Positions 13,270 through 34,430 of a DNA stretch of 64,000 bases are shown here, in pieces; within the stretch, counting starts at the first letter, position 1; every line of letters starts with the position of its first letter. The DNA lies in NCBI GenBank assembly GCA_002454195.1, contig DKIJ01000027.1:22616-86615 (forward strand). Direction: 5' to 3'. The translations under genes and the position numbers were made by a program. Under the pieces are notes generated by a model, which was not told the DNA's origin, made no database searches, and worked only from the letters and a program-made list of their open reading frames with translations. Origin of the DNA: Flavobacterium sp. UBA6721. GTDB taxonomy: Bacteria; Bacteroidota; Bacteroidia; Flavobacteriales; Flavobacteriaceae.

Positions 13270-13340
13270 CAGTTATGAGTTGTGAGTTGTCAGTTATGAG
13301 ATAGTCCAACTGATAACCCACAACTGATAACCCACAACAA
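13270..13340. repeat. Heptamer-repeat hairpin left of the four-helix-bundle gene
   Basis: The left half reads GTTATGAGTTGTGAGTTGTCAG and the right half reads AACTGATAACCCACAAC words. AGTTGTGAGTTGTCAGTT can pair with AACTGATAACCCACAACT with only two G-T type mismatches, so the transcript can fold into a long stem. Confidence 0.7.
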
Positions 13341-13346
13341 AAAAAC

Positions 13347-13721
13347 ATGAGCGATTTTAAAAGTTATAAAGATTTAGACATTTACAATATTGGTTTGGAT
13401 TTGTTTTTAACGGTACATCCTAATAGTCTAAAGTTACCCAAGTACGAATTGTATGAGTTAGGAAGTCAGTTGCGGCGCTCTTCAGATAGTGTAGTGTCTA
13501 ATATAGTAGAAGGATATGGAAGAAGAAAATATAAAGCTGATTTTATTCGGTTTTTGGTTTTTTCTCATTCTAGTTGTTTAGAGACAATTGGTCATATTTA
13601 TAAAATAGTAGTACTATATCCTAATTTGAAACCGGATTTTGAATCATTAATACAGCGTTATGAAAATTTAGGTGGAAAAATTTTTAACTTTATAAAGTAT
13701 GTAGAACAAAATTGGAAATAG
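13347..13721 (+). CDS. Four-helix-bundle protein (23S rRNA intervening-sequence protein family)
   Basis: A 124-residue protein of the family annotated as four helix bundle or S23-type IVS protein. Visible hallmarks are YKDLDIYNIGLDL near the start, the central ELGSQLRRSSDSVVSNIVEGYGRR and the YENLGGKIFNFIKYVE end. The biochemical role of the family is unknown; it was first noticed in insertions within 23S rRNA genes. Here it lies between wzm and wzt, flanked on both sides by heptamer-repeat hairpins, and does not resemble a polysaccharide gene. I interpret it as a cassette inserted into the operon. Confidence 0.85.
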   Translation: MSDFKSYKDLDIYNIGLDLFLTVHPNSLKLPKYELYELGSQLRRSSDSVVSNIVEGYGRRKYKADFIRFLVFSHSSCLETIGHIYKIVVLYPNLKPDFESLIQRYENLGGKIFNFIKYVEQNWK

Positions 13722-13723
13722 CA

Positions 13724-13862
13724 TCAGTTGTGAGTATTGAGTTATGAGTTTTAGAGGTTTTAGAACCCAGAACCCAGAACCCAGAACCCACAACTCACAA
13801 CCCAGAACCCTGAACTCACAACTCAAACAATGCCCGACAACCCACAACCCACAACTCACAAC
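13724..13862. repeat. Heptamer-repeat tract right of the four-helix-bundle gene, running into wzt
   Basis: It starts with GTTGTGAGTATTGAGTTATGAG and then switches to AACCCAG, AACTCAC and AACCCAC words, the complement of the left part, so it can fold back. The last ~33 bases (13830-13862) lie inside the wzt reading frame and supply its start codon and first residues. Confidence 0.75.
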
Positions 13863-15086
13863 AAGAATATTATTCTAAAAGCCGAAAACATCTCCAAGCA
13901 ATACCGATTAGGTACGGTAGGAACGGGTACGCTTAGTCATGACTTTAATCGTTGGTGGCATCGTATTCGAGGAAAAGAAGATCCGTATTTAAAAATAGGC
14001 GATGTGAATGATCGTTCCACAAAGGGAAGTTCCGATTATGTATGGGCGTTACAGGATATCAATTTTGAAGTAGAGCGTGGGGAAGTATTAGGAATCATTG
14101 GTAAAAATGGAGCAGGGAAATCAACGCTCTTAAAAATTCTTTCAAAGGTTACAGCACCTACAACAGGAACTATTAAATCCCGTGGTCGTATCGCTTCTTT
14201 GTTAGAAGTGGGTACCGGTTTTAATGGCGAATTAACAGGCAGGGAAAATATTTATCTCAATGGTGCTATTTTAGGAATGACCAAAAGCGAAATCACATCC
14301 AAGCTCGATGAGATAATCGAATTTTCAGGTTGTGAACGCTACATAGACACTCCTGTAAAACGCTACAGTAGCGGAATGACCGTTCGTTTGGCATTTGCTG
14401 TAGCTGCCTTTCTCGAACCTGAAATTTTAGTTATCGATGAGGTATTAGCCGTAGGCGATGCCGAATTCCAAAAAAAAGCCATCGGCAAGATGCAGGATAT
14501 TTCCAGAGGAGAAGGAAGAACAGTGCTTTTTGTGAGCCATAATATGGCAGCGGTGAAGAGTTTGTGTACCAGAGGAATTGTTTTAGAGCATGGGAAAGTG
14601 GTTTTTGAGGGGGGGATTGAAGAAAGTGTTCAATATTATTTAATGAGTGAAAATAAATCGGAAGACTCCAGAATCTTCACTAACAGTAAAAAGGGGTCAA
14701 ATGGAATTAAAAAAATCCAAATTCAGGGAATTGACGGTATTCACAAACATGAAGATGATATTTTAATAAACATAACTTTTTCTGAAATTAATACCGAATG
14801 TAGAGTTGGTGTTGCATTATTAAATGCAAATAAAACTAAAGTTTTTACGGATGTATGTAAAATTAATAAACAGAATAAAGAAATAGGTTGTAAAATTCCC
14901 GGATTTTTACTGCTTAAAGGTACCTATAGTATAGATGTTGCGACTTTTAGTGATAATGTAGTTTATGATTATATCGAAGATGTATGTCCATTTCAAATTG
15001 TCGATTTAATAAATGACTATAAGATTTATAACGGTAAAATTGGTGATTTAAAAATTAAATGTGAATGGAATGAAGTTGAAAGATAG
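13830..15086 (+). CDS. wzt: Wzt-type ABC transporter ATPase with C-terminal carbohydrate-binding domain
   Basis: A 418-residue polysaccharide-export ATPase. Residues about 15-265 are the ABC domain: Walker A GKNGAGKST, signature YSSGM and Walker B ILVIDEVLAVGD. Residues about 270-418 form the Wzt-type C-terminal domain that recognises the glycan in O-antigen systems. The only ATG before the domain is at 13830, inside the heptamer repeat, so the first ~11 residues (MPDNPQPTTHN) are repeat-encoded and probably not conserved. It works with Wzm at 12399-13268. Confidence 0.9.
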   Translation: MPDNPQPTTHNKNIILKAENISKQYRLGTVGTGTLSHDFNRWWHRIRGKEDPYLKIGDVNDRSTKGSSDYVWALQDINFEVERGEVLGIIGKNGAGKSTLLKILSKVTAPTTGTIKSRGRIASLLEVGTGFNGELTGRENIYLNGAILGMTKSEITSKLDEIIEFSGCERYIDTPVKRYSSGMTVRLAFAVAAFLEPEILVIDEVLAVGDAEFQKKAIGKMQDISRGEGRTVLFVSHNMAAVKSLCTRGIVLEHGKVVFEGGIEESVQYYLMSENKSEDSRIFTNSKKGSNGIKKIQIQGIDGIHKHEDDILINITFSEINTECRVGVALLNANKTKVFTDVCKINKQNKEIGCKIPGFLLLKGTYSIDVATFSDNVVYDYIEDVCPFQIVDLINDYKIYNGKIGDLKIKCEWNEVER

Positions 15087-15609
15087 ATTTCTCAAATTTT
15101 TTCATTTAAAAAAAGACATAAAGAAAAATGTTTTTTTACATAACTCAACTAAAGTGTATCCGAATGTAATTTTTGATACAATTTATGGTGGAAATATTGA
15201 AGTTGATGAGAAAACTGAAATTCTATATGGTGTTATTCTTATGACATATGGGGGATTTATTAAAATAGGTAAAAATTGTTCCATTAATCCTTACACTATT
15301 TTATATGGTCATGGCGGTTTAACTATTGGCGATAATGTATTGATTGCCGGTCATTGTTTAATAATTCCTGCAAATCATAATTTTAGCAATCCTGATATAC
15401 CAACTAACCAACAAGGCGAAACTCGAAAAGGAATTGTTATAAAAGATAATGTATGGCTTGGTTCGGGAGTCAAAATTCTGGATGGAGTAACTATTGGTTC
15501 TGGTGCAATAGTTGCGGCTGGAGCTGTAGTTTCAAAAGATGTAGAACCAAATACAATTGTAGGAGGAGTTCCTGCAAAAAAAATAAAAGATAGATTTCAA
15601 TCATCATAA
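15070..15609 (+). CDS. Left-handed beta-helix (hexapeptide) O-acyltransferase
   Basis: About 179 residues with imperfect hexapeptide turns through the second half (KIGKNCSINP, LTIGDNVLIAGH, GIVIKDNVWLGSG, VTIGSGAIVAAG) and the typical ending IVGGVPAKKI. It resembles maltose/NodL-type acetyltransferases; the histidine in PANHNF is the likely catalytic base. I use the ATG at 15070; a GTG at 15061 is also in frame. The start overlaps the end of wzt by 17 bases, so translation is probably coupled. The sugar acceptor is unknown. Confidence 0.82.
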   Translation: MKLKDRFLKFFHLKKDIKKNVFLHNSTKVYPNVIFDTIYGGNIEVDEKTEILYGVILMTYGGFIKIGKNCSINPYTILYGHGGLTIGDNVLIAGHCLIIPANHNFSNPDIPTNQQGETRKGIVIKDNVWLGSGVKILDGVTIGSGAIVAAGAVVSKDVEPNTIVGGVPAKKIKDRFQSS

Positions 15610-15610
15610 A

Positions 15611-16426
15611 ATGAAATTAAAAAAACTTAGAAAAATTTATAGGGTTTTATTTCCAATAAAGCTTTCTCCCAATCAAAATTTTATAAATAATCTAAAGGCT
15701 AATAAGCAGATTAAAGATTTCGAAAAAGAGGAAGGGCTTTATATCTTTATTTTACAAAATAATCAAAAAATCTATTGTAGGGATCAAAATCATAGTGATT
15801 ATTCGGTTTTCGATCAGATATTTAATAAGGAAGAATACTCGGATGTGTCTTCTGTTTTAAATTTGAATAAAGAGTTTGATTCTAAAGAAAGCATCTTAAT
15901 TGATGCTGGAGCAAATGTTGGATTTGCGACTATTTATCTATCTCAAAAAAGAATATTCGATAAGATTTTCTGTATAGAACCTTCAAAATCTAATTTTGAA
16001 ATTTTAAAGAAAAATATTTCCACATTAGATACAACAATAAATGTGACACTTTTAGAAAATGCACTTTCAGCCAGAGAAAATCAAAGTTTTCATCTCAAAA
16101 ATGATTTTAGAGACGGACAAGACTGGTCAATAACAACTATCCAAAGAGAAAATGGAGAAGTTAAAGGAATTACTATAAATGAAATTATAAATAAGTATGA
16201 TTTAGAGGAAATTACGTTGTTAAAAATAGATATTGAAGGAGCAGAAAGATTTATTTTTGATGAATCAGTAAATTTGGAATATTTGGATAAGATTAAAATA
16301 ATTGTTATTGAAATACACGATGAATTTGATATCAGAGAAGATATTTACAAAGTTTTAAAAAATAATAACTATTTATTAATTGAATCAGGCGAACTAACAA
16401 CTGCAATAAATAAAAAGTTTCTGTGA
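15611..16426 (+). CDS. FkbM-family SAM-dependent methyltransferase
   Basis: 271 residues. The SAM-binding motif LIDAGANVGFATIYLS (about 96-111), the acidic CIEPSKSNFEILKKN and the ITLLKIDIEGAE block near 200 identify the FkbM family. In glycan loci these enzymes usually O-methylate a sugar, often at a terminal position. The gene follows the acyltransferase by one base and starts the long glycosyltransferase run. Confidence 0.85.
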   Translation: MKLKKLRKIYRVLFPIKLSPNQNFINNLKANKQIKDFEKEEGLYIFILQNNQKIYCRDQNHSDYSVFDQIFNKEEYSDVSSVLNLNKEFDSKESILIDAGANVGFATIYLSQKRIFDKIFCIEPSKSNFEILKKNISTLDTTINVTLLENALSARENQSFHLKNDFRDGQDWSITTIQRENGEVKGITINEIINKYDLEEITLLKIDIEGAERFIFDESVNLEYLDKIKIIVIEIHDEFDIREDIYKVLKNNNYLLIESGELTTAINKKFL

Positions 16427-16444
16427 TTTTAAATTATAGAATAT

Positions 16445-17281
16445 ATGAATCCAATAATAAGTATAATTATTCCTTGTTATAATTCTGAAGTAACTTTAGA
16501 TAAAACTTTGAGATCAGTTATAGAACAAGAATTTCAGGATTGGGAAGCATTAATAATTAATGACGGTTCAACAGATGATACAGAGAAAGTTGCTTTAGAA
16601 TGGGTAAATAAAGATAATAGATTTAAATATTTCTCTAAACAGAATGAAGGACTAGGTAAAACCCGGAATTTTGGAATCAATAAAGCAACAGGAACTTATA
16701 TATTACCCTTAGATTCAGACAATCTCATTGAAAGGGATTTTATTCAGGATGCGATAAACGTTTTTGAAAATAATCCAGAAATTGGGATTGTCCATGGTCA
16801 TGCCGAGTATTTTGGTGAAAAAACAGGAATTTGGATAATTGAGGAATTCAATTTGACTAATATGTTAGCTCATAATTATATAGATGCTTGTGCCATATAT
16901 AAAAAAGTACTTTGGCAACAGGTAGGTGGTTATGATGAAAATATGCCACATCAGGGTAATGAAGATTGGGAGTTATGGTTAGCATTTGGAGTTGCAAATG
17001 TGAAATTCTACCATCTTAAAAAAGTTACTTTCCAATATTTTGTTTCAAAAAATTCAATGATTAGATCTTTCTCTGAAAAAATGATTAAAGACAATCAGGA
17101 TTATATATTAAAAAGATATAGCAAAGAATATCACTCTCAATATTGCAAGCTAATTTCATCAATTAAAAAAAAAGAAAACTATGTGCGTGAAAAACTAAAA
17201 AGCAAAAAGGTTGTGATGAATCTTTTCACCCATATGTTTTTTGGATTTAAAATTTTCACGAAAATAGATGATAAATTTTAA
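16445..17281 (+). CDS. GT2-like glycosyltransferase A
   Basis: 278 residues, GT-A fold. The start ISIIIPCYNSE, NDGSTDDT (39-46) and metal-binding DSD (90-92) are present; NEDWEL near 177 carries the likely catalytic acid. It is a clear paralogue of the proteins at 20845-21708 and 23524-24348, sharing the QEFQDWEALIINDGS-like segment and the GGYDENM...EDWELW block. Donor and acceptor cannot be assigned from sequence. Confidence 0.85.
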   Translation: MNPIISIIIPCYNSEVTLDKTLRSVIEQEFQDWEALIINDGSTDDTEKVALEWVNKDNRFKYFSKQNEGLGKTRNFGINKATGTYILPLDSDNLIERDFIQDAINVFENNPEIGIVHGHAEYFGEKTGIWIIEEFNLTNMLAHNYIDACAIYKKVLWQQVGGYDENMPHQGNEDWELWLAFGVANVKFYHLKKVTFQYFVSKNSMIRSFSEKMIKDNQDYILKRYSKEYHSQYCKLISSIKKKENYVREKLKSKKVVMNLFTHMFFGFKIFTKIDDKF

Positions 17282-17284
17282 GAA

Positions 17285-18133
17285 ATGATTTCAATCATAA
17301 TTTGTTCACGAAAAGCTAGTATTTCACAAGATCTTTCAGTTAATATTAAAGAAACGATAGGATGTGTTTATGAACTAATTATTATAGATAATTCAGAAAA
17401 CCATTATTCCATTTTCGAAGCATATAATTTAGGAATAGATAAGAGCGTTGGAAAGTATTTGTGTTTTATTCATGATGATATTCTTTTTCATACCCAAAAT
17501 TGGGGATTAATTTTGAATAATATTTTTGACAAAAATCCTAACATTGGTCTGATTGGTGTTGCAGGTGCAAAAGTAAAAACCAAGATGCCATCAGCTTGGT
17601 GGGATTGTTTAGAGGATTTTAAAGTTTTAAATCTCATTCAACACCTTGATGCTGATAAAAAACAGTTTTGGAATAAAGGATTTCAGAAATCTGAGGAAGA
17701 AGTTGTAGTTGTTGATGGTGTTTTTTTAGCTGCAAAAAGAATAGACGGTATAGGTTTTTGTAAGAAGTTAAAAGGATATCATAATTATGATTTGAATTTG
17801 TCTTTTGAATATTTAAAGAAGGGTTTTAAAATTGTTGTAACAAATAAAATTTTAATTGAACATTTTTCACTTGGAAAACTTGATAAATCCTGGATTATTT
17901 CAGCATTAAAAATTCATGAAATTTATTCTGATTTTCTTCCGTTGACTTCTTTGGATGTTTATGAAATAAAAAATCAGGAATTTAAAAATGGAAGTAAATT
18001 TGTAAATGAATTGTTATATTACAAAATGTTTAGGGAAGCGATATTTTTATGGTCAAAGTTAGTTAGACTAAAACCTAAAAGTAAATTCCATTTAGAATTT
18101 ATAAAAAAAATCAAAACTGCATGCTTGCCATAA
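17285..18133 (+). CDS. GT2-like glycosyltransferase B
   Basis: 282 residues, starting ISIIICSRKAS. The expected acidic motif is HDD (63-65, FIHDDILF). The conserved KLKGYHNYDLNLSFEYLKKG block and a late HFSLGKLDKSW histidine segment match a GT2 subgroup found in Bacteroidetes polysaccharide clusters. It overlaps the next gene by 13 bases. Substrate unknown. Confidence 0.75.
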   Translation: MISIIICSRKASISQDLSVNIKETIGCVYELIIIDNSENHYSIFEAYNLGIDKSVGKYLCFIHDDILFHTQNWGLILNNIFDKNPNIGLIGVAGAKVKTKMPSAWWDCLEDFKVLNLIQHLDADKKQFWNKGFQKSEEEVVVVDGVFLAAKRIDGIGFCKKLKGYHNYDLNLSFEYLKKGFKIVVTNKILIEHFSLGKLDKSWIISALKIHEIYSDFLPLTSLDVYEIKNQEFKNGSKFVNELLYYKMFREAIFLWSKLVRLKPKSKFHLEFIKKIKTACLP

Positions 18134-19023
18134 TAATTCCCTATTATAAAGCTGTTTTCTTTGAAGAAACCCTGAAGTCTTTGGCTGAACAAACGGACAA
18201 ACGTTTTAAAGTATATATTGGTGATGATGCAAGTCCGGATGATTGTATAGTAATGGTAGAAAAATTCCGTTCTAAGTTTAATATTGTTTATCATAGGTTT
18301 GAATCCAATCTGGGGAGTAAATCACTTAGTAAACATTGGGAACGTTGCATCAGCTTGTCTTCAGAAGAGAACTGGTTAATGATTTTAGGAGATGATGATT
18401 ATTTAGAAAATAATGCAGTAGCCTCATTTTATAATAATTTGGAAAATTTTCAAAATAAAACGAATGTAGTCCGATTTGCTTCTAAAATTTACAGACAAGA
18501 ATTAGGCGTGTTTTCAAGATTATATGAGCATCCTATTTGGGAAAAAGCTTCGGATTCTTATTTTAGAAAGTTCCGGTTTTTAACAATGAGTTCTTTGTCT
18601 GAATATATTTTTAAAAAAGAAAGTTATAATCAATTTAAATTTTCTGATTTTCCTTTGGCTTGGTATTCGGATGATATGGCCTGGCTTGAATTTTCCGGTA
18701 CTCAAGAAATCTATTCAATCAATGAAGCTGTAGTAGTTTTTAGATTTTCAAATTATAATATTTCTGGTAAAGAAGATAATGTAACAGATAAGGAGCAAGC
18801 TAAGTTTTTATTTTATAAAAAACTAATCAAAAATCAGTTAAACAAGTTTACAGCATTTCAGAGAGAAAAATTATTATTAGAATTTGGTATTACAATTATT
18901 GCTCAAAATAGAGTAAATACAGAACAATTCAGTTTGGTCTTTTTTCAGTTAATTAAAAACGGATCGTTCTATGCTTCTGCTAAGTTTATTAGAAGAGTGA
19001 TTTTAGCAAAACTTAAAAAGTAA
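18121..19023 (+). CDS. GT2-like glycosyltransferase C
   Basis: 300 residues. IIIPYYKA opens the protein, GDDASPDD (34-41) is the nucleotide-binding block and GDDDY (90-94) the metal site. The central DMAWLEFSG segment takes the place of the usual ED-W catalytic block. It starts inside the end of the preceding gene, so translation is probably coupled. Substrate unknown. Confidence 0.8.
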   Translation: MLAIIIPYYKAVFFEETLKSLAEQTDKRFKVYIGDDASPDDCIVMVEKFRSKFNIVYHRFESNLGSKSLSKHWERCISLSSEENWLMILGDDDYLENNAVASFYNNLENFQNKTNVVRFASKIYRQELGVFSRLYEHPIWEKASDSYFRKFRFLTMSSLSEYIFKKESYNQFKFSDFPLAWYSDDMAWLEFSGTQEIYSINEAVVVFRFSNYNISGKEDNVTDKEQAKFLFYKKLIKNQLNKFTAFQREKLLLEFGITIIAQNRVNTEQFSLVFFQLIKNGSFYASAKFIRRVILAKLKK

Positions 19024-19032
19024 TTATAAAAA

Positions 19033-19989
19033 ATGCAGCTTTCAGTTATTATTCCAACCTATAATGTAGAACGTTTTATTAAAAAAGCGATTCAATCTGT
19101 TTTGGAACAAGCTGAAGTAGCCGAAATTGTTGTGGTTGATGATGGGAGTACAGATTCTACAGTCCAAATTGTAAACCATTTGAAACAGGAATATCCAATT
19201 ATTAAATTGTATTCTCATCCAAATAATGAAAATAAAGGACGCTCAGCTACAAGAAATATTGGAATTCAAAGAGCTACAGGGGATTTTGTCGCTTTTTTGG
19301 ATGCTGATGATTATTATTTGCCTAATAGATTTACTAACGATTTCGCAATTTTTCAAAATGATTTTAATTGTGATGGCATATATAATGCAGTAGGTTTTCA
19401 CTTCTATCGAAAAGCAACTGAGGACGAATTAAAATCACATCAATTATATACTGTAAGACAGAAAGTTGCTCCTGAAGACTTGTTTAAAAACTTGTTGTAT
19501 GGTAAATGTGGACATTTCCATATTAATGGCCTTACGGTGAAGAAAAAAGTTTTTGAAGAAACGGGTTTGTTTAATGAAGAATTAGTAGTGGCAGAGGATT
19601 CGGAAATGTTTTGGAAAATGGCTATAAAATGTCGTTTAGAATCCGGAATTGTAGATAGAGCAGTCGCTATCCGAGGAGTCCATGATAATAATATTTTTGA
19701 TAAAGAAGACTTGTACAAAATATATAATATTAAAATGCATGAAACGCTTGCTGTCTGGTGTAGTAAAAATCAAGTGAAAGCTGCCACTATCGATGATATT
19801 TTAAAATGGATTTGGATGCTAAGATACCAAGAGCATAACAAAATGTATATAAACATTAAAGCTTGGGCACAATTTTTTTTCTCACAGCCCCAATTGCTTT
19901 TTACTCTATTCAGCATTAAATATTTTCCTATTATTAGGTATAGACAAATGCTTTTCCCATTTTTGTACTCAAAGAAAAATATAGAATAA
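19033..19989 (+). CDS. GT2-like glycosyltransferase D
   Basis: 318 residues with a canonical GT2 N-terminus: LSVIIPTYNVE, VDDGSTDST and FLDADD (88-93). EDSEMFWKMA near 196 is the catalytic region. It lies 9 bases after the preceding transferase in the same operon. Substrate unknown. Confidence 0.85.
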   Translation: MQLSVIIPTYNVERFIKKAIQSVLEQAEVAEIVVVDDGSTDSTVQIVNHLKQEYPIIKLYSHPNNENKGRSATRNIGIQRATGDFVAFLDADDYYLPNRFTNDFAIFQNDFNCDGIYNAVGFHFYRKATEDELKSHQLYTVRQKVAPEDLFKNLLYGKCGHFHINGLTVKKKVFEETGLFNEELVVAEDSEMFWKMAIKCRLESGIVDRAVAIRGVHDNNIFDKEDLYKIYNIKMHETLAVWCSKNQVKAATIDDILKWIWMLRYQEHNKMYINIKAWAQFFFSQPQLLFTLFSIKYFPIIRYRQMLFPFLYSKKNIE

Positions 19990-19999
19990 TTTATAAATA

Positions 20000-25289: not shown

Positions 25290-25302
25290 TTACTGATCTA
25301 TT

Positions 25303-27317: not shown

Positions 27318-27345
27318 CTTAAAATAGTACTAAAACATAAAACAG

Positions 27346-27353
27346 TATATTTG
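27346..27353 (+). promoter_or_regulatory. Putative promoter of the nonulosonate module
   Basis: TATATTTG matches TAnnTTTG and lies 18 bases before the ATG at 27372. It gives the CMP-sugar synthetase gene its own start site within the locus. No TTTG -33 box is evident. Confidence 0.45.
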
Positions 27354-27371
27354 ATTTTTAGAATATAGAAA

Positions 27372-28529
27372 ATGAAAAAAACAGCCATCATACCCTTACG
27401 TATAGATTCCAAAGGGATTCCGGGAAAAAATAAAAAGAAAATGCTGGGACGCCCCCTTTTTTCATGGGTTTTAGGAGAAGCTATTTTTTCTGATTTGGAT
27501 GAAGTCTTTGTCTTTACCGATGACGTGGAAATTATCGATTATATCGCAAAAGAATACCATTGGACTCCAAAAGTAAAAGCACTTTTGCGTTCCAAAGAAA
27601 ATGCAACGGATACCGCTTCTACCGAAAGTGCTATGTTGGAATTTGCGGAACAAATCCAATACGATTTTGATGTACTGTGTTTGTTGCAGGCTACTTCGCC
27701 TATGACTACCGCTAGAGATATTAATACCACTTTAACTAAAATTGAAAATGAAAATTACGATTCGGCCCTCACGGTTGTGAATACGCATCGTTTTACTTGG
27801 AATGCCAATGGGACACCTCAAAATTATGATGTGTTCCATCGGCCAAGGCGTCAGGATTTTGAAGGTTTGTTAATTGAAAACGGTGCTGTTTATGCTACTA
27901 CAAAAAAGGCTTTTTTAGAATCTAAAAACAGAGTGAGTGGTAAAATCGGTTTAGTGACAATGCCTGAAAATTCATTGGTAGAAATCGATTCTATGACCGA
28001 TTGGAAAATTGTAGAAGAACTTTTAGCCAGCCGATTGAAAAAAGCAAAACAACAGCAACGGATTGATTATTTAGTGTTAGATGTTGACGGTGTGTTCACT
28101 AACGGACAGGTGTTTTATTCGGCAGAAGGAGAATTGGCTAAAGCCTTTGATATGCGTGACGGAATGGGATTGGAGATACTACGTCAAAATCAGGTTGAGG
28201 TGGTCGTAATAACATCTGAGAATTCAGCCTTAGTGGCGCAACGCATGAAAAAACTCCAAATTGAAAATACTTTTTTAGGGGTAAAAGATAAATATGCCTT
28301 TTTGCAACAATTTGCTAAAACCAGAAATACTAATTTTAATTCTTTTGCCTACATAGGCGATGATGTAAATGACTTAGCGAATATATGCGCAGTAGGATGG
28401 TCATTTTCACCGGCCAATGCCACAACAATAGTAAAACTAAATGCCGATTATTTATTAACGAAAGCTTCCGCTGAGGGTGCAATTCGCGAAGCTTGTGAAA
28501 AAATAATTGTTTATAACGAACGGTTTTAG
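27372..28529 (+). CDS. Fusion: CMP-nonulosonate synthetase plus HAD (KdsC-like) phosphatase
   Basis: 385 residues with two catalytic domains. Residues 1 to about 225 are a NeuA-type cytidylyltransferase (AIIPLRIDSKGIPGKN; LLQATSPMTTARDI). Residues about 233-385 are a C0-type HAD phosphatase with motif I DVDGVFT, motif II ITSEN, the motif III lysine in GVKDK and motif IV GDDVND. Fusing the nucleotidyltransferase to a phosphatase fits a route in which the synthase makes a 9-phosphate that must be dephosphorylated before CMP activation. Partner: the NeuB-like synthase at 29813, separated from it by a DUF559 cassette. Confidence 0.88.
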   Translation: MKKTAIIPLRIDSKGIPGKNKKKMLGRPLFSWVLGEAIFSDLDEVFVFTDDVEIIDYIAKEYHWTPKVKALLRSKENATDTASTESAMLEFAEQIQYDFDVLCLLQATSPMTTARDINTTLTKIENENYDSALTVVNTHRFTWNANGTPQNYDVFHRPRRQDFEGLLIENGAVYATTKKAFLESKNRVSGKIGLVTMPENSLVEIDSMTDWKIVEELLASRLKKAKQQQRIDYLVLDVDGVFTNGQVFYSAEGELAKAFDMRDGMGLEILRQNQVEVVVITSENSALVAQRMKKLQIENTFLGVKDKYAFLQQFAKTRNTNFNSFAYIGDDVNDLANICAVGWSFSPANATTIVKLNADYLLTKASAEGAIREACEKIIVYNERF

Positions 28530-28867
28530 ACTAAAAGGGAAAGTAGAAGAATTCAAAATACAAACCCCCAACCCCTATCAAGAGGGGAGTTAGTTTTCGG
28601 AAAATAATTCCATTTTGCTTTGAAATATTATAAAAAGCAATTGAAAAATCTATTTTTGGAGCGACTAATTTATAATTAACGTCATCGTATTCCCTTCTTG
28701 AGGGAGACAAGGGAGGTGAGAAAAAGAGAAGTTGTAAAGATATAGTAGTAGATGTAATTAATGTCATCGTATTCCCCTCTTGAAATCGAAGATGTAACGA
28801 TTCCATAAAAAATTAATAAAGGGAGTTAGAGGGGTTAGGGGTGTGTAAAAAGATAAAATATTTCATC
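28530..28867. repeat. 338-bp repeat block left of the DUF559 gene
   Basis: No gene apart from the end and start of its neighbours. Copies of the CCCCTCT/AGAGGGG palindrome lie at 28551-28612 (reversed), 28681-28720 (degenerate) and 28761-28850. The last is interrupted by a 45-bp insert at 28784-28828. All share a TCATCGTATT or TTAGCACTA lead-in and a TTAGGGGTGTG tail. Confidence 0.75.
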
Positions 28868-29275
28868 ATGTCTAAACGAAAAATCATCCCCTATAATCCT
28901 AAACTAAAAGAATACGCTCGGGAACTTAGAAATAATTCGACACAATCAGAGATATTCCTCTGGATGAAGTTAAAAGGAAAACAAATGTATGGTTATGATT
29001 TTCACAGACAAAAACCTATAGATAACTATATTTTAGATTTCTTTTGTCACGAATTAATGCTAGGTATAGAATTAGATGGTTATTCGCATCAATTAATTGA
29101 AGTGCATAATAAAGATTTGAAAAAAGAAAAAAGAATGATGGAATTAGGTGTGACCATATTACGATTTACAGATGAGCAAGTCACAAAGGATATCGAAAAC
29201 GTAATTAGAGCAATAGAATTTTTTATTGAAGAGTTTGAAAAACACACCCCCAACCCCTCTCAAGAGGGGAGTTAG
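28868..29275 (+). CDS. DUF559 endonuclease-like protein with repeat-encoded C-terminus
   Basis: 135 residues of the DUF559 family, related to very-short-patch-repair (Vsr)-like PD-(D/E)xK nucleases. Visible marks are NSTQSEIFLW (the conserved early Glu), KMYGYDFHRQKPI-like text, YILDFFCHELMLGIELDG with the Asp and Glu of the core, and TILRFTDEQV. I start at the ATG at 28868; a GTG at 28841 lies inside the repeat. The last ten codons, HTPNPSQEGS and the stop, are the palindromic repeat itself. It interrupts the nonulosonate gene pair. Confidence 0.87.
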   Translation: MSKRKIIPYNPKLKEYARELRNNSTQSEIFLWMKLKGKQMYGYDFHRQKPIDNYILDFFCHELMLGIELDGYSHQLIEVHNKDLKKEKRMMELGVTILRFTDEQVTKDIENVIRAIEFFIEEFEKHTPNPSQEGS

Positions 29276-29282
29276 TTTTCGT
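29241..29282. repeat. Palindromic repeat copy overlapping the 3' end of the DUF559 gene
   Basis: ACCCCTCTCAAGAGGGGA with the flanks CACACCCCCA and GTTAGTTTTCG is the reverse orientation of the CCCCTCTTGAGAGGGG family. It encodes HTPNPSQEGS and the TAG stop of the DUF559 protein. Confidence 0.85.
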
Positions 29283-29812
29283 AAATGAATGACGACTATT
29301 ATAAAGATTCAGGGCTGAATCAGGGGATTGTTGTAAGGTGTGGTAAGAGTCAAGTGACTATAGATTTGGAGAATGTAATTAGGATGATTGAATTTTTTAT
29401 TGAAGAGTTTAAAAAACACACCCCAACCCCTATGAAGAGGGGAGTTAAGTCCCTAATAATATTTTCGTCTTGTATTTTATTTTAGATAAAGTCCAGATTT
29501 GAAATTGTAAAATCAGTTATAATTAGCACTAAGGAGTTCCTCTCTTGAAATCGAAGATGTAACGATTCCATAAAAAATAATAAGGGCAATAGTGTAATAA
29601 GGTTGTGAAAGAAAAAAAAGTCAAGTAAAAGTATTTGAGGTAGTTAAAATGTAAAATAGAAGTTATCAATTAGCACTATTATATTCCCCTCTGTAGAGGG
29701 GCTAGGGGTGTGAGATATGATGTGTGTAAAGATAAAATTTGTTGATTAGCACTAATGAATTCCCCTCTTGAGAGGGGTTAGGGGTGTGTGAAAATTATAA
29801 AACGAAACGTAA
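29276..29812. other. 537-bp decayed repeat region between the DUF559 gene and neuB
   Basis: It holds the DUF559 remnant (29348-29447), a second copy of the 45-bp insert sequence joined to half a palindrome (29538-29587), and two full palindromes at 29681-29712 and 29751-29790, each with the TTAGCACTA lead-in. No intact gene is visible. Confidence 0.75.
29348..29447 (+). pseudogene. Remnant of a second DUF559 gene (C-terminal end only)
   Basis: About 100 bases duplicate the 3' end of the intact gene (29174-29275). The reading ENVIRMIEFFIEEFKKHTP matches ENVIRAIEFFIEEFEKHTP, followed by a damaged palindrome (CCCCTATGAAGAGGGG). The frame upstream does not look like DUF559. This is a decayed second copy and shows that the cassette duplicated or recombined here. 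Confidence 0.8.
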
Positions 29813-30688
29813 ATGAATAACTATAAAAAACCTTATGTAATTGCCGAAATAGGTTGCAATCATAAGGGGGAAATGGAAATTGCTAAGGAGCTCATCAAAA
29901 TTGCTAAAATATTTTGTAATGCCGATGCAGTCAAATTTCAGAAAAGAAATAATAAAGAATTACTAACGGAAGAGCAATACAATGCTCCACATCCCAATAG
30001 TTCCAATGCGTATGGGGATACCTATGGCGCGCATAGAGAGTATTTGGAATTTGATTTAAACCAACATTCCGAATTGAAAAATTACTGTGAATCGGTTGGT
30101 ATTACATATTCTACTTCGGTTTGGGATTTGACTTCCGCTAAAGAAATTGCTTCATTACATCCTGATTTTATTAAAATTCCTTCTGCTTGTAATAATAATT
30201 ATGCGATGTTATCTTGGTTATGCGAAAATTACCAAGGTGAGATTCATATTTCGACAGGAATGACAACTAAAAATGAAACTGAAGAACTAGTCAATTTCTT
30301 TATTGAAAAAGGGCGTAATCAGGATTTGGTTTTGTACAACTGTACATCTGGATATCCGGTACCATTTGAAGATGTTTGCTTGCTAGATATTAATTTGCTA
30401 ATAGCTAAATATGGAGAAAAGGTCAAACACATTGGTTTTTCAGGGCATCATTTAGGGATAGCAGTTGATATAGCAGCTTATACTTTAGGAGCCAATATTA
30501 TCGAAAGACATTATACACTGGATCGTACCTGGAAAGGAACCGATCATGCCGCTTCATTAGAACCTATGGGCTTACGAAAATTAAGTCGTGATTTAAATGC
30601 AGTTCATTCGGCGTTGACATTTAAAAGCAGTGATATTTTACCAATTGAAGCTGTGCAACGAGAGAAGTTGAAGAATAAGAAAGGCTGA
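29813..30688 (+). CDS. NeuB-like nonulosonic acid synthase lacking the SAF domain
   Basis: Condenses phosphoenolpyruvate with a hexose or N-acyl-hexosamine (phosphate) to give a nine-carbon sialic-acid-like sugar. The TIM-barrel motifs are intact: AEIGCNHKG (11-19), VKFQKR, KIPSACNN, STGMTT, GFSGHHLG and ERHYTLDR with the metal-binding histidines. At 291 residues it ends right after the barrel. The C-terminal SAF (antifreeze-like) domain of usual NeuB proteins (about 340-350 residues) is absent, and no remnant follows before the next promoter. With the fused synthetase/phosphatase at 27372 it forms the nonulosonate module. Confidence 0.88.
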   Translation: MNNYKKPYVIAEIGCNHKGEMEIAKELIKIAKIFCNADAVKFQKRNNKELLTEEQYNAPHPNSSNAYGDTYGAHREYLEFDLNQHSELKNYCESVGITYSTSVWDLTSAKEIASLHPDFIKIPSACNNNYAMLSWLCENYQGEIHISTGMTTKNETEELVNFFIEKGRNQDLVLYNCTSGYPVPFEDVCLLDINLLIAKYGEKVKHIGFSGHHLGIAVDIAAYTLGANIIERHYTLDRTWKGTDHAASLEPMGLRKLSRDLNAVHSALTFKSSDILPIEAVQREKLKNKKG

Positions 30689-30718
30689 TTTTTTGTTTAA
30701 GCAAAAAGAAATAAGCAT

Positions 30719-30726
30719 TAGGTTTG
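30719..30726 (+). promoter_or_regulatory. Putative promoter of the gene at 30745
   Basis: TAGGTTTG matches TAnnTTTG, 18 bases before the ATG at 30745. TTTG at 30692-30695 could be a -33 box, but the 23-base spacing is longer than usual. Confidence 0.4.
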
Positions 30727-30744
30727 CACTCATAAAAATAATCA

Positions 30745-32142
30745 ATGAACAATAAAAAAATCCTTGTTTTTTTCCCGGATGGTGTAGGGCTTCGCAATTT
30801 TGCCTTTACCCAATTTAAAGAAATTGGTGAAGAGCGTGGAAACCAAATAATATATTGGAACAATACCGTTTATCCTTTACAAGAAGAATTAGGGTATGAA
30901 GAAGTAAAAATCAAGACACAAAAGATTCATCCTTTAACTTCTTACTATTGTCGTGTTAGAAAACATATTGAACTGAATGTTGCTACCAAAAAGTTCAAAG
31001 ATCAAGTATATCAAACTTATAAATTTCCCTTTAATTACAATGGATTAAAGAATACTTTGATGACACTTTTTATCAAAGTGCTTATTGGTTTGAATTCTTC
31101 TGAAAAAGGGATAGTACGAATTCGAAAAAGAATTAATGCTTTAGAACGTGCTACCAAAAAGTATCAGTATTGCAAAAAACAATTGGAAGAAATAAAACCC
31201 GATTTGGTTTTTTGTACTACCCAAAGAGCTACTCAATCTATTGGCGCTTTATTGGCTGCACAGGATTTAGGGATTCCTACTTTAACGTTTGTGTATTCTT
31301 GGGATAATGTGCCTAAAGCGATGCAATTGGTAGAAACCGATTATTATTGTGTGTGGAGTGATTTGATGAAAAAGGAAATGCTACAATATTACCCTTTTGT
31401 TAAGGAAAACCAATTAATAGTTACGGGAACACCTCAATTTGAACCGCATTACGATACTGCTCTAACGCAAAGTAGAGAAGCTTTTTTTGCCGAATATCAG
31501 TTGGATATCCAAAAAAAATACATTTGTTTTTCAGGAGATGATGAAACCACATCACCATTAGATCAGTATTATTTAGAAGATTTAGCTCATGCTGTTCGTA
31601 CTTTAAGTGCTAAAGGATATAATTTGGGGATTATCTATCGTAAATGTCCTGTTGACACTACTTCCCGATACAATGCAGTAATTGAGGCTAATAAAGATAT
31701 CATCGCAGTAATAGATCCATTATGGAAGGCTTTAGGGAAAAATTGGAACGAAGTATTTCCTACTAAGGCCGATTTAGGATTATTACATAATGTTTGTGCG
31801 CATTCTGAATTGGTAACCAATGTGTGTTCTTCCACAGTTTTCGATTTTGTAGCGCATAATAAGCCATGTATTTATTACAATTATGAACAGCCTCAATTGA
31901 AAGAGGGAATTCGTGACATTGGGCAAAACTATAAATACGTTCATTTTAGATCAATGCCAAGTCAGCAAGCTGCTGTTTTTTGTACAGATAAAAATCAATT
32001 AGCCAATCAGATTGAAGCAATTCTAAAAGGAGAATTATCAAATGTTTCAGAGGGAAAAAAATGGTATGCTATTGTAGCAGGTGAAACGCCAACACAGGCC
32101 TCGGAGAAAATTTGGGATGCTATTGATCGCATTGTAAAATGA
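30745..32142 (+). CDS. Unassigned GT-B-like protein, candidate nonulosonate transferase
   Basis: 465 residues that I cannot place in a named family. It looks like a GT-B fold: an N-terminal ILVFFPDGVGLRNFAF, a middle LVFCTTQRATQSIGALLAAQ with TFVYSWDNVPKA, VTGTPQFEPHYD at the domain junction, and a C-terminal VTNVCSSTVFDFVAHNKPCIYYNY that resembles the sugar-nucleotide-binding end of UDP-glycosyltransferase or glycerophosphotransferase relatives. Directly downstream of the synthase, it is the best candidate in the window for transferring the CMP-activated nonulosonate. This role is an inference from position. Confidence 0.6.
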   Translation: MNNKKILVFFPDGVGLRNFAFTQFKEIGEERGNQIIYWNNTVYPLQEELGYEEVKIKTQKIHPLTSYYCRVRKHIELNVATKKFKDQVYQTYKFPFNYNGLKNTLMTLFIKVLIGLNSSEKGIVRIRKRINALERATKKYQYCKKQLEEIKPDLVFCTTQRATQSIGALLAAQDLGIPTLTFVYSWDNVPKAMQLVETDYYCVWSDLMKKEMLQYYPFVKENQLIVTGTPQFEPHYDTALTQSREAFFAEYQLDIQKKYICFSGDDETTSPLDQYYLEDLAHAVRTLSAKGYNLGIIYRKCPVDTTSRYNAVIEANKDIIAVIDPLWKALGKNWNEVFPTKADLGLLHNVCAHSELVTNVCSSTVFDFVAHNKPCIYYNYEQPQLKEGIRDIGQNYKYVHFRSMPSQQAAVFCTDKNQLANQIEAILKGELSNVSEGKKWYAIVAGETPTQASEKIWDAIDRIVK

Positions 32143-32228
32143 AATCAGAAATTGAAAATTTTATCCTAGATTTGCTGCTTAATTAGTTAATGAGAATTTG
32201 CCCCACTTTGAGATAAGGGAAGAAGAGA

Positions 32229-32278
32229 ACTCATAACTTCTAACTCATAACTTCTAACTCATAACTTTTAACTCAAAA
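32229..32278. repeat. AACTCATAACTTCT tandem just upstream of the MBOAT gene
   Basis: Three near-copies of AACTCATAACTTCT/TTTT lead directly into the start codon at 32280. They belong to the same heptamer-word family as the blocks around the four-helix-bundle gene. Confidence 0.7.
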
Positions 32279-32279
32279 A

Positions 32280-33713
32280 ATGTTCTTCAACTCTTTCGCT
32301 TTTGCGATTTTTTTACCCCTCGTTTTTATTTTGTATTGGTTTGTGTTTAACAAAAACAAAACCACTCAAAATAGTTTATTAATTATTGCCAGTTATTATT
32401 TTTATTCTTGTTGGGATTGGCGCTTCCTATTTCTTTTAGTATTTTCGACTTTTTTAGATTATTATACGGGTATTCGAATTGAAAAAAGCCAGAAAGAAAG
32501 CAGTCGAAAATTTTGGTTTTGGTTGAGTATCGGAGTCAATTTAGGATTTCTGGGCTTGTTTAAGTATTATAACTTCTTTGCGGCTTCTTTTGCGGAGCTA
32601 ATGCAGGGATTTGGTTTAAAAACATCACCTTTTTTGTTGGACGTAGTCTTACCTGTGGGGATTTCTTTTTATACCTTCCACGGCCTATCCTATGTAATTG
32701 ATATTTATTACAAAAGAATTAAAGCCGAATACAACTTTGTCGATTATTCCCTGTTTGTGAGTTATTTTCCGCTTTTGGTGGCAGGACCTATCGAAAGAGC
32801 AACCCATTTATTGCCAGAGATCAAAGAAAAACGAAGTTTTAATTTCGAACAGGCTAAAGCTGGAATCTACCAAATGCTATGGGGATTACTAAAAAAAGTA
32901 GTCATTGCCGATACCTGTGCGACTTATGCTAATGCCATCTTTGACCATTATGGCTCAATGAATTCGTTCTCGTTAGTATTAGGAGCTATTTATTTTGCGT
33001 TCCAAATTTACGGCGACTTTTCAGGATATTCAGATATGGCTTTGGGGATGTCTAAATTGTTTGGATTAGAACTACTAAGAAATTTTAATTATCCCTATTT
33101 TTCAAGAGATATAGCCGAGTTTTGGCGTCGTTGGCACATTTCGCTATCCTCTTGGTTTCGCGATTATTTATACATTCCGTTAGGAGGTAGCAAAGGCGGA
33201 ATGTGGATGAAAATCCGAAATACCTTTATTATCTTTTTGGTCAGTGGTTTTTGGCATGGTGCCAATTGGACGTATGTAGTTTGGGGGCTGATTAATGCCT
33301 TGTACTTTTTACCACTTCTTATACGGAAATCCAATCGAAACAATTTGGATACAGTTGTTTTAGATCGAAGTTGGGAATCGTTAAGAACGGTTGCCAATAT
33401 CGTACTCACCTTTGCACTAAGTTGTTTGGCTTGGGTGTTTTTTAGGGCAAAAACAATCACAGATGCTTTTTTGTATTTAAAAAAAATGTTTACCAATGGG
33501 CATTTCGAAACCCAATATTTGGCTAACGAAAGATACAACTATGAAATTATCCTCTTGTTGCTGCTGTTTATCACGGTCGAATGGAACAATCGCACCAAAG
33601 AAGAACCGATTTCGGGTAAATATCAAACGATAAAATTAGCTTTATGTTTGGCCGCTATCATGGCTTTAGGAACCTATTCGGATTACAAAGAGTTTATTTA
33701 TTTTCAGTTTTAG
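32280..33713 (+). CDS. MBOAT-family membrane O-acyltransferase (AlgI-like)
   Basis: 477 residues, about eleven transmembrane helices. Family marks are PVGISFYTFHGLSYVID, the FWRRWHISLSSWFRDYLYIP block and SGFWHGANWTYVVWG with the conserved histidine. MBOAT proteins of this type pass an acyl group through the membrane, and a periplasmic SGNH partner finishes O-acetylation of the glycan. The SGNH partner is at 34518-35387, separated from it by a GIY-YIG gene and its repeats. Confidence 0.92.
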   Translation: MFFNSFAFAIFLPLVFILYWFVFNKNKTTQNSLLIIASYYFYSCWDWRFLFLLVFSTFLDYYTGIRIEKSQKESSRKFWFWLSIGVNLGFLGLFKYYNFFAASFAELMQGFGLKTSPFLLDVVLPVGISFYTFHGLSYVIDIYYKRIKAEYNFVDYSLFVSYFPLLVAGPIERATHLLPEIKEKRSFNFEQAKAGIYQMLWGLLKKVVIADTCATYANAIFDHYGSMNSFSLVLGAIYFAFQIYGDFSGYSDMALGMSKLFGLELLRNFNYPYFSRDIAEFWRRWHISLSSWFRDYLYIPLGGSKGGMWMKIRNTFIIFLVSGFWHGANWTYVVWGLINALYFLPLLIRKSNRNNLDTVVLDRSWESLRTVANIVLTFALSCLAWVFFRAKTITDAFLYLKKMFTNGHFETQYLANERYNYEIILLLLLFITVEWNNRTKEEPISGKYQTIKLALCLAAIMALGTYSDYKEFIYFQF

Positions 33714-33752
33714 GATTTTGTATAAACTTTTAAGATTGATATATAATTTTAG

Positions 33753-33851
33753 GATGTGATTCCTCCTTCGTCGGAATGACACACTAGCTGCATTTTGTCA
33801 TCTCGACGAAGGAGACTCGAGCTATAGTGAACAGGCGAAGCAGATCACATA
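33753..33851. repeat. Inverted repeat left of the GIY-YIG gene (copy 1)
   Basis: GATGTGATTCCTCCTTCGTC with GGAATGACA on the left and TGTCAT, CGACGAAGGAG and GATCACAT on the right are complementary arms around a short loop. It is a full copy of the repeat family whose second copy ends the GIY-YIG reading frame. Confidence 0.85.
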
Positions 33852-33916
33852 AAGAAACTCAATAAAGAAAATTAATCGTATTTTGTCATCACCTAAATTA
33901 AGTTGAATAAAAAAGT

Positions 33917-34264
33917 ATGTTTGATTATAGAGAAGGCTATCATACTTATTATGTATACATCATAACGAATCGTTATCGTTCGACTTTTTATATTGGTATG
34001 ACAAATAATTTAAGGAATAGATTACAACAACATCATAAAAATATTGAAGAAGCTAATAAAACGTTTGCAGCAAAATATGGAATTGAGTTTTTGGTATATT
34101 ATGAAAAACACAGTTGGGTACATTTGGCAATCACAAGAGAAAAAGAATTAAAAAGCTGGAATAGAACTAAAAAAATAGAATTAATTCGTTCTTTCAATCC
34201 GGAATTTGAGTTCTTGAATGAAAGATTTAAAAATGGGGATGTGATTCCTCCTTTGTCGGAATGA
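33917..34264 (+). CDS. GIY-YIG nuclease-domain protein with repeat-encoded C-terminus
   Basis: 115 residues of the single-domain GIY-YIG (UPF0213/YhbQ-like) family. YYVYIITNRYRSTFYIGMTNNL carries the GIY and YIG equivalents, the arginine and the downstream EKELKSWNR with the conserved glutamate are present, and REKELK-type spacing is normal. The last eight residues (DVIPPLSE) and the TGA stop are encoded by the left arm of repeat copy 2. The nucleic-acid target is unknown. It separates the MBOAT from its SGNH partner and is flanked by its own inverted repeats on both sides. Confidence 0.87.
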   Translation: MFDYREGYHTYYVYIITNRYRSTFYIGMTNNLRNRLQQHHKNIEEANKTFAAKYGIEFLVYYEKHSWVHLAITREKELKSWNRTKKIELIRSFNPEFEFLNERFKNGDVIPPLSE

Positions 34265-34317
34265 CACACTTACACAGATTGTTTTGTCATTTCGACCAAA
34301 GGGAGAAATCACATAGA
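34237..34317. repeat. Inverted repeat overlapping the 3' end of the GIY-YIG gene (copy 2)
   Basis: The left arm GATGTGATTCCTCCTTTGTC plus GGAATGACA covers the last codons and the stop. The right arm TGTCATTTCGACCAAAGGGAG ends in AATCACAT, complementary to the left arm. Confidence 0.85.
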
Positions 34318-34354
34318 GAAAGTCTACAAAGTGAGTAAAGAAAAAGTAATAAAC

Positions 34355-34430
34355 GAGATGAGATTTCTCCTCTGGAGGAATGACACAATCAAACGCACAT
34401 TTTTTTATCTCGTCGCAACTGCCAAACTCG
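34355..34430. repeat. Degenerate third copy of the GIY-YIG-associated repeat
   Basis: GAGATTTCTCCTCTGGAGGAATGACACA and a weakly matching right half (ATCTCGTCGCAACTGCC, then ACTCGAG) resemble copies 1 and 2 but are decayed. Confidence 0.6.

Follow-up and report, generated by a model that had tools for sequence, protein, structure and literature searches.

Three small gene families, each paired with its own class of bacterial repeat, as candidate transposase-free mobile cassettes

We have analysed a stretch of 64,000 nucleotides (hereafter the window) of Flavobacterium sp. UBA6721 (GenBank GCA_002454195.1, an assembly of 2.40 Mb that is 73.7% complete; contig DKIJ01000027.1, G000:C29:22616-86615 in our set, where G and L numbers denote genomes and loci), in which three small genes, encoding an S23 protein, a DUF559 protein and a GIY-YIG protein, are each flanked on both sides by copies of a different repeat. 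The pattern is far wider than the window, since the three pairings recur across distant bacteria: one protein family pairs with one repeat class, a statement about which we have hardly any doubt. The best reading of these data is that of transposase-free cassettes similar to REPtrons, the units of a RAYT (REP-associated tyrosine transposase) gene and repetitive extragenic palindromes (REPs), and each of the three genes of the window probably supplies the protein of a small mobile cassette that has one repeat class at its borders and whose protein would act on that repeat.

The pairing was evaluated with three detectors, for palindromes with a YGTC-A tag, for C-arm hairpins and for 7/8-mer arrays, run on six sets of loci up to 300 bp on either side of the gene. 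The resulting matrix was almost block-diagonal, within the genus and outside. YGTC-A palindromes were detected at 94/109 GIY-YIG loci (25/29 in the own genus and 69/80 outside), 3/51 DUF559 loci (1/27 and 2/24) and 6/61 S23 loci (3/35 and 3/26). C-arm hairpins were present at 32/51 DUF559 loci (15/27 and 17/24), at a single one of the 109 GIY-YIG loci (0/29 and 1/80) and at 0/61 S23 loci (0/35 and 0/26), while 7/8-mer arrays flanked 44/61 S23 genes (24/35 and 20/26), 7/109 GIY-YIG genes (2/29 and 5/80) and 2/51 DUF559 genes (1/27 and 1/24). Short loci had been dropped (in the own genus one of 30 GIY-YIG, one of 28 DUF559 and one of 36 S23; outside, 6/30 DUF559 and 4/30 S23), and the matrix excludes L076 (a Vsr-like match), the own-genome DUF559 loci L015 and L016 and that of the window itself, all own-genome GIY-YIG loci except that of the window, and 16 plasmid loci. 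The outside sets come mostly from other phyla, with some Bacteroidota, and their DUF559 and S23 loci are a non-independent sample, taken from 48 genomes reached via the GIY-YIG loci (S23 was found in 35/48 of these and DUF559 in 28/48). In the protein search, the names among the 120 of 1017 matches listed were Bacteroidota. In separate runs, the S23 and GIY-YIG genes of the window passed their own detectors on both sides. Similar repeats were seen by eye on at least one side of all 16 plasmid loci, not all of them from Proteobacteria; by detector, 7/10 plasmid GIY-YIG loci had the YGTC-A tag, two more had a CCTC-A tag and L143 had neither, and C-arm hairpins were found at 4/6 plasmid DUF559 loci.

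The elements of the window are arranged as follows (a strand is given where one was assigned; arrays and inverted pairs are unstranded).

11172-11289, unstranded: AACCCAC array in the dialect of the S23 cassette, with no S23 gene adjoining
12109-12271, unstranded: another AACCCAC array in the same dialect, also with no S23 gene adjoining
12399-13268: wzm, left neighbour of the S23 gene
13272-13343, unstranded: left 7-mer array of the S23 cassette (GTTATGAG TTGTGAG TTGTCAG ... AACTGAT AACCCAC AACTGAT AACCCAC), itself an inverted pair that folds as a local hairpin
13347-13721, plus strand: S23 (23S rRNA intervening-sequence protein; PF05635, TIGR02436), between wzm and wzt
13723-13865, unstranded: right 7-mer arrays of the S23 cassette, the last part of which is translated as the N-terminus of the wzt reading frame
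13830-15086: wzt, right neighbour of the S23 gene
27372-28529: nonulosonate cytidylyltransferase/phosphatase, left neighbour of the DUF559 gene
28560-28591, plus strand: left C-rich imperfect palindrome of the DUF559 cassette (ACCCCTATCAAGAGGGG)
28828-28846, minus strand: half repeat AGAGGGGTTAGGGGTGTGT, overlapping the possible GTG start of DUF559
28868-29275, plus strand: DUF559 nuclease of PD-(D/E)XK type (PF04480)
29242-29273, plus strand: C-rich palindrome encoding the DUF559 tail HTPNPSQEGS and the stop
29351-29446, plus strand: second, truncated copy of the DUF559 3' end with repeat, 80% alike to 29177-29256
29686-29701, minus strand: right C-rich palindrome CCCCTCTGTAGAGGGG of the DUF559 cassette
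29758-29789, minus strand: right C-rich palindrome of the DUF559 cassette, 94% complementary to 29242-29273
29813-30688: neuB, right neighbour of the DUF559 gene
32280-33713: MBOAT gene (DltB-type), left neighbour of the GIY-YIG gene
33758-33814, unstranded: left-hand repeats of the GIY-YIG cassette, two TGTC-tagged palindromes forming an inverted pair (DNA fold z -4.3)
33917-34264, plus strand: GIY-YIG nuclease (PF01541)
34243-34304, unstranded: right inverted pair of TGTC-tagged palindromes, the first of which encodes the GIY-YIG tail VIPPLSE and the stop (DNA fold z -3.0)
34363-34385, plus strand: third, decayed copy of the TGTC-tagged palindrome, folding no better than shuffles
34518-35387: reading frame after the GIY-YIG gene, labelled SGNH in the original prediction and with no NCBIfam match

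The S23 gene encodes 124 amino acids (list of open reading frames (ORFs) and Pfam; 23S_rRNA_IVP, E 1.9e-20) and the GIY-YIG gene 115 (E 1.4e-14). The DUF559 gene reaches 144 when read from a GTG at 28841, with an alternative ATG at 28868 (E 3e-28), and its product has an additional weak Pfam match to MTES_1575. With up to three mismatches, the repeat CCCCTCTTGAGAGGGG has 11 matches in the window versus 0.13 expected, a count that includes one distant match at 1334 and in which palindromic places are counted on both strands; GATTCCTCCTTCGTCGGAATGACA has 2 and AACCCACAACTCACAACCCA 22, versus 0.00 expected in each case. Between their repeats, the three cassettes have no gene for a recombinase or a transposase, and Rfam gave no match in 10500-36000 of the window. 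The original prediction, that three small genes are each set in a repeat family of their own on both sides, is upheld in its reading frames, its families and its above-chance repeats, as is the claim that the repeat encodes the C-terminus and stop of two of them, DUF559 (...HTPNPSQEGS) and GIY-YIG (...VIPPLSE), with the stop codon inside the repeat in both. The description of the repeats as palindromic is correct for GIY-YIG and DUF559 and had to be given up for S23, whose repeat is a degenerate inverted 7-mer array. Repeat-encoded tails, which the original prediction also mentions for proteobacterial genes, were seen by eye at the plasmid loci in 2/6 DUF559 genes (L149 and L152) and 0/10 GIY-YIG genes. 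That low-complexity regions should flank three small ORFs by chance, or through an artefact of annotation, finds some footing in the 7-mer arrays, which are of low complexity and easily matched; it is contradicted by expected counts of about zero, by the matrix and by the tag enrichment and lag statistics given below, and is so improbable that it can practically be set aside.

For GIY-YIG, 80 loci were chosen by protein alone (the best 80 of at least 571 confirmed), spanning around 20 phylum-level groups according to our own reading of the record titles. A tagged palindrome was present within 500 bp at 72/80 loci and on both sides at 53/80, and the density of these palindromes was 3.27/kb near the gene versus 0.26/kb beyond 1.5 kb, a 12.6-fold difference, while 12 rows of control tags gave near/far ratios of 0.6-2.4, with any palindrome at 3-16/80 loci and both sides occupied at 0-2/80. 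In total, 259 YGTC-A hairpins lay within 500 bp of the 80 loci; control tags were weakly or not enriched, and the GTAG tag was not enriched. A stricter detector retained 28/80 loci (15/80 on both sides), many stems being interrupted, or shorter than those of the published CGTC families. The repeat of the window has an unpaired TGTC tag followed by a stem that starts with AT (ATTCCGAC...), as in CGTC REPs; as for the tail, CCA was the commonest in 14/67 loci, the other 53 mostly ending otherwise, and the window copies end in CACA. When folded as DNA, two of the three repeat stretches around the window gene were better than their shuffles (z -4.3, -3.0 and -0.45). In tag, stem start and orientation of the dimers the repeats agree with CGTC REPs, for which excerpts of the paper by Di Nocera, De Gregorio and Rocco (2013; PMC3733652) give the following features: a CGTC, TGTC or CCTC tag, a stem starting with AT and a short unpaired tail that is often CCA, an arrangement mostly as head-to-head dimers, occasional intragenic insertion, and presence in Bacteroidetes. 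According to the same excerpts, CGTC REPs "apparently lack a dedicated transposase" and show no association with transposase genes, whereas small GIY-YIG genes lie among such repeats at the 72 loci described here.

Repeat and protein also vary together. Across the 67/80 loci that were usable, GIY-YIG protein identity covaried with the repeat core (Mantel r 0.38, p 5e-4), which would also be expected if gene and repeats were inherited together. Across 61 genomes of the genus, the repeat in the dialect of the window reached at least five copies in 24/24 genomes with a GIY-YIG of the close clade versus 5/37 of the others (4/25 with another GIY-YIG and 1/12 with none), in a comparison whose statistics ignore shared ancestry and whose cut-off for the close clade (E <1e-35) was set after the table had been seen; a reversed-pattern control gave zero copies in all 100. 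The co-occurrence of repeat and protein put forward in the original prediction is in this way borne out, the matching family being favoured and the other two rare, with the copy number of one dialect tracking its protein, ancestry uncorrected. Up to 57 copies of the dialect were counted per genome. Among pairs without a gene, picked because two copies lay 43-79 bp apart (so that the share of dimers among all copies is not given), 20/20 were discrete inverted dimers with tags outward and unrelated flanks, and from their sequence these gene-free dimers of the same-genus genomes look like REPINs (REP doublets forming hairpins). A small gene flanked by repeats, together with dispersed gene-free inverted dimers (here of the GIY-YIG type), is likewise what RAYT/TnpA-REP REPtrons, GTAG REPs and REPINs present, with the difference that REPtrons have a Y1/HUH transposase and the Pfam matches in the window are GIY-YIG, DUF559 (with the weak MTES_1575) and 23S_rRNA_IVP only. 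Alignment columns Y6, Y17, G19, R27 and E65 of GIY-YIG were 100% conserved and N84 97% (n=67); the catalytic positions Y, Y, R, H, E and N of I-TevI presumably correspond to columns kept in 97-100% of these 67 sequences.

Occupied and empty sites could be compared in the gap between sufB and sufC. In Azospirillum lipoferum 4B (L142) it holds a REP pair, the GIY-YIG gene and a second REP pair; A. ramasamyi and A. oryzae, whose matched sequence is 95.6-96.2% identical, have an empty gap of 91 and 87 bp, and in Azospirillum strain B510 it has 129 bp with a C-rich hairpin and no GIY-YIG. The same gap is occupied in Shinella PSBB067 (L236) by a GIY-YIG with another repeat dialect and in Sphingomonas parapaucimobilis (L149) by a DUF559. 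Three genera of Alphaproteobacteria therefore have a cassette right after sufB, and these cassettes are of two unrelated types. Between gltA and lpxB, Sinorhizobium meliloti Ak57 (L139) has, in addition to REPs, a complete GIY-YIG gene and the truncated 3' end of another, and Sinorhizobium K101 only solo REPs (both by eye). A truncated 3' end of a cassette gene with its repeat stands beside a full copy at L139 for GIY-YIG and at 29351-29446 of the window for DUF559.

Such truncated ends between repeats could also point to hitch-hiking, in which other machinery, of the host or of insertion sequences, moves the repeats and the small genes are trapped between copies or spread by homologous recombination. 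The five genomes with repeat copies and no close GIY-YIG can be read in the same sense, as can recombination between repeated GIY-YIG and DUF559 regions in Legionella (excerpts of PMC12308824). In the excerpts of that study, an evolution experiment with L. pneumophila revealed 11 hotspots beside GIY-YIG genes, plus three segments with a transposase and DUF559, which appeared in 44% of 61 long-range variants (PMC12308824); these hotspots are independent evidence that also speaks for our reading, and they are compatible with active cutting as well as with passive recombination of one repeat with another. However, passive capture does not predict one family per repeat class over many phyla, nor the covariation of GIY-YIG with its repeat core, nor conserved catalytic residues, and we consider hitch-hiking improbable.

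DUF559 cassettes include insertions within proteins. Among 29 newly fetched loci (the best-scoring, one per genome), 16 had DUF559 in a long open frame (L048-L052, L054, L056, L057, L059, L060, L063-L066, L071 and L073), most of them with terminal palindromes, none being seen by eye at L071. The host proteins named by family searches include a Type ISP enzyme, MetH, leucine--tRNA ligase (LeuS), RecG and a RecB-like helicase. In MetH, the linker that joins PF02607 to PF02310 is unbroken in 73/82 genomes with a MetH match by our own row count; the match is split in eight (G014, G021, G032, G033, G037, G047, G055 and G066), and G046 has one half only. The linker stretch measured 14-16 residues in 30 unbroken loci, which were the best matches and hence unbroken by choice, versus 150-167 in the seven filled loci that were read, and it is empty in the own genome. 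A second MetH site carries DUF559 in L054 and, by eye, repeats or a remnant only in L050, L056 and L057. On a host tree of 38 rows the filled state requires at least six changes, and 0/200 bootstrap trees need only one. The DUF559 domains of the MetH linker, two of which come from Ignavibacteria genomes, group in one clade (95/90) that also contains the domain of the second site, on a tree that is rough because of its few alignment columns; the window protein belongs to another clade, of free-standing genes. Residues E17, D46, E57 and D59 (domain numbering) were conserved in 59/59 DUF559 sequences, and both GIY-YIG and DUF559 enzymes look active to judge from such conserved residues. DUF559, as we take it, shares the PD-(D/E)XK fold family with Vsr. 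Conserved acidic residues are common to it and to Vsr/PD-(D/E)XK nucleases, with DUF559 being linked here to a class of hairpins. A Pfam scan of nine proteins, of which eight bear DUF559, gave no match to an intein or Hint model at E up to 1e-5. Palindromic DNA in frame in conserved proteins is also a feature of Rickettsia palindromic elements and of intragenic REPs, the latter at about one recB site in Xanthomonas according to excerpts of PMC3733652; unlike these, the insertions in MetH, LeuS, RecG and the RecB-like helicase have a whole nuclease domain between two palindromes. As side observations, near-perfect inverted C-rich repeats flank a DUF559 gene between paaD and paaZ on a Deinococcus plasmid (L150), and in G030 a solo repeat of DUF559 type (CCCCCTAGCCCTCTGAAGGGGG, L330) lies in the wzm|wzt gap, where the window has the S23 cassette.

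Recurrence at one conserved target, in same-genus and Ignavibacteria genomes, is reminiscent of homing endonucleases, and spread of that type is an alternative reading: the nuclease would cut unoccupied conserved targets such as the MetH linker or the end of sufB, repair of the double-strand break would copy the cassette, and the repeats would be merely tolerated edges. The single clade (95/90) at the MetH linker with filled genes scattered on the host tree, and the use of the sufB|sufC gap by GIY-YIG (Azospirillum, Shinella) and DUF559 (Sphingomonas), agree with this. It leaves unexplained, however, the existence of repeat classes, the hundreds of copies of one dialect in 61 genomes and the many gene-free dimers in unrelated gaps, and most of the cassettes that were read occupy different gaps; we regard it as rather unlikely.

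The S23 repeat of the window is a degenerate 7-mer tandem array, inverted across the gene (lag 14, z 5.4 upstream; lag 7, z 9.3 downstream), which also encodes the first eight or so residues of the wzt ORF at 13830. Outside the genus, the best repeat lag was 7 in 33/52 flanks of S23 genes, or 34/52 if lag 8 is included; in the own genus it was 7 or 8 in 47/70 flanks. The corresponding counts for lag 7 or 8 were 9/58, 5/54 and 7/44 in three sets of control flanks, a fourth set having contained no usable loci. In 61 loci, the upstream flank and the reverse-complemented downstream flank were more alike within the same locus than between different loci (p 8e-21), and likeness was greater in inverted than in direct orientation (p 6e-5). 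An S23 ORF between inverted ends is likewise the arrangement of the 23S rRNA intervening sequence, and tandem heptamers (GACAGAT) precede the S23p start inside the rRNA element of Coxiella, according to excerpts of PMC4990558. Unlike the rRNA element, those described here are intergenic (wzm|wzt in the window), with several dialects per genome, and the inverted flanks of the window form two side hairpins instead of one closing stem. Another kind of intergenic 7-mer array, direct repeats of the TAACTGA heptamer, is known from Beggiatoaceae, Cyanobacteria and Bacteroidetes (excerpts of PMC4679880); the word AACTGAT of the window array is that heptamer in another register. The authors of PMC4679880 saw no transmission mechanism, and the words four helix, S23 and intervening sequence are absent from that paper.

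Empty sites were found for all three families, as had been anticipated, wzm|wzt being the one of the window itself that was examined. S23 is present there in 3/29 readable loci (own, G010 and G017) and missing in 26/29, wzt following wzm within 161 bp in 11/29 loci (in the rest its start was not placed by the script), which agrees with S23 splitting a pair that otherwise adjoins. Between rimM and trmN6, S23 occurs in 5/30 loci and a gap of 17-281 bp in 25/30; several of these S23-free gaps contain solo inverted arrays by eye, and in L307 and L319 inverted word arrays surround a short unrelated middle, like internally deleted elements. The idea of convergent single-gene cassettes, comparable to RAYT/REP elements and with different proteins, is supported by these empty sites and by the pairing of family and repeat. 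It could also be proposed that the elements are immobile and benefit the host, the repeats acting as terminators or mRNA-stability elements and the small proteins as RNA-processing or RNA-binding factors. REPs are mostly 3' of genes and thought to be transcribed (excerpts of PMC3733652), and S23 is known from processed rRNA insertions (excerpts of PMC4990558), but all three families vary in presence at the same gap between relatives, and a regulatory function does not readily account for insertions that lie in frame within MetH, LeuS, RecG and a RecB-like helicase, all of which makes this role very unlikely.

Several observations weigh against a cassette whose protein acts on its repeat. Besides the uncorrected ancestry and late cut-off of the copy-number comparison, at least five repeat copies are present without a close GIY-YIG in G022, G027, G029, G044 and G058, and there is no tagged palindrome within 500 bp at 8/80 GIY-YIG loci (L162, L171, L195, L197, L201, L207, L210 and L222). 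The detectors were designed from own-genus and plasmid loci already read before being applied to unread ones, and C-arm hairpins were detected at only 32 of the 51 DUF559 loci. The window DUF559, whose palindromes are short, had none within 300 bp of the gene edges and one YGTC-A match upstream, a single C-arm hairpin being found only if the repeat-encoded 3' tail is counted; 0/3 of its repeat stretches folded better than shuffles (z -0.7, -1.5 and -0.9, with 19-49/200 shuffles as good). The detector failures at this gene and at plasmid loci do not change our estimate, because the matrix did not rest on them. No target-site duplications were seen by eye at sufB|sufC and MetH, where the empty relatives are too distant for certainty. 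For S23, protein and array dialect were correlated in the own genus (r 0.49, p 5e-4), which could stem from shared position by descent, and not significantly so outside it (r 0.10, p 0.20, n=26), so that covariation as a general rule was dropped; a single closing hairpin around the S23 ORF was also abandoned for the window, the minimum-energy fold of 13269-13870 being two side hairpins. Finally, in the own genome, inspection by eye shows no tagged repeat at GIY-YIG loci L002 and L007 and, at L001, nothing but similar sequences without the tag; DUF559 locus L016 lacks a C-arm hairpin.

With these points considered, we still favour cassettes that are very likely mobile, with about equal chances that their movement is driven by the nuclease or by something else. 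A GIY-YIG cassette would consist of one or more REPs, the gene, and one or more REPs; the enzyme may recognise the tagged hairpin, most likely in single-stranded form at replication, and cut beside it, after which repair or joining of the break would copy the REP dimer or the whole cassette to a new gap. This would make GIY-YIG a candidate for the missing partner of the CGTC REP superfamily. DUF559 may follow the same logic on C-arm hairpins of the CCCCTC...GAGGGG type, with one clade that inserts in frame into housekeeping enzymes and recurs, homing-like, at one MetH linker. The S23 cassette is probably related to the 23S rRNA intervening sequence, with its place between genes. We know of no nuclease fold for S23, and a binding role is therefore to be expected, in which the protein would attach to the array, as RNA or as DNA, and either protect or present it, movement relying on other enzymes. 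Cutting beside a hairpin, either extruded or single-stranded, is the simplest role for the two nucleases, and binding the simplest for S23. Combining the three, there might be at least three independent kinds of transposase-free element, each with a fixed protein family and repeat grammar, in which GIY-YIG mobilises CGTC REPs, S23 partners both intergenic heptamer arrays and rRNA intervening sequences, and the DUF559 clade is an in-frame, splicing-free homing element of housekeeping enzymes; as a whole, this proposal is tentative and falls slightly short of an even chance.

Dispersed repeats such as heptamer arrays and REP-like palindromes are common in bacteria and, to our knowledge, only the GTAG class of REPs had a known partner enzyme. 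The paper defining the CGTC class left its mobiliser open (PMC3733652). A candidate enzyme can now be named for that class and partners proposed for two more classes of repeats; a role is offered for three vaguely annotated gene families, which would account for the repeat-encoded protein tails and for the odd insertions of DUF559 in methionine synthase, leucyl-tRNA synthetase and repair helicases. Among the papers listed in searches of openly licensed PMC literature, none linked GIY-YIG, DUF559 or S23 genes to these repeat classes in its title or abstract start, the closest being the Legionella hotspot study and the Coxiella intervening-sequence paper; this is weak evidence of novelty because only openly licensed papers were covered.

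Further copies of the three families are present in the own genome, with eight Pfam matches for GIY-YIG, six for S23 and three for DUF559; three of these (two GIY-YIG, one DUF559) are part of frames of 458-601 amino acids. All six S23 copies have a word-like array of their own on both sides by eye, weak on one side of L010, with inverted flank scores of 29-56 versus a control 95th percentile of 29, and the six proteins share just 14-34% identity. By eye, the repeat of the window flanks GIY-YIG locus L004 on either side, a tagged repeat lies on a single side of L003, and L002 and L007 adjoin tRNA-like sequence, possibly reflecting a different insertion habit.

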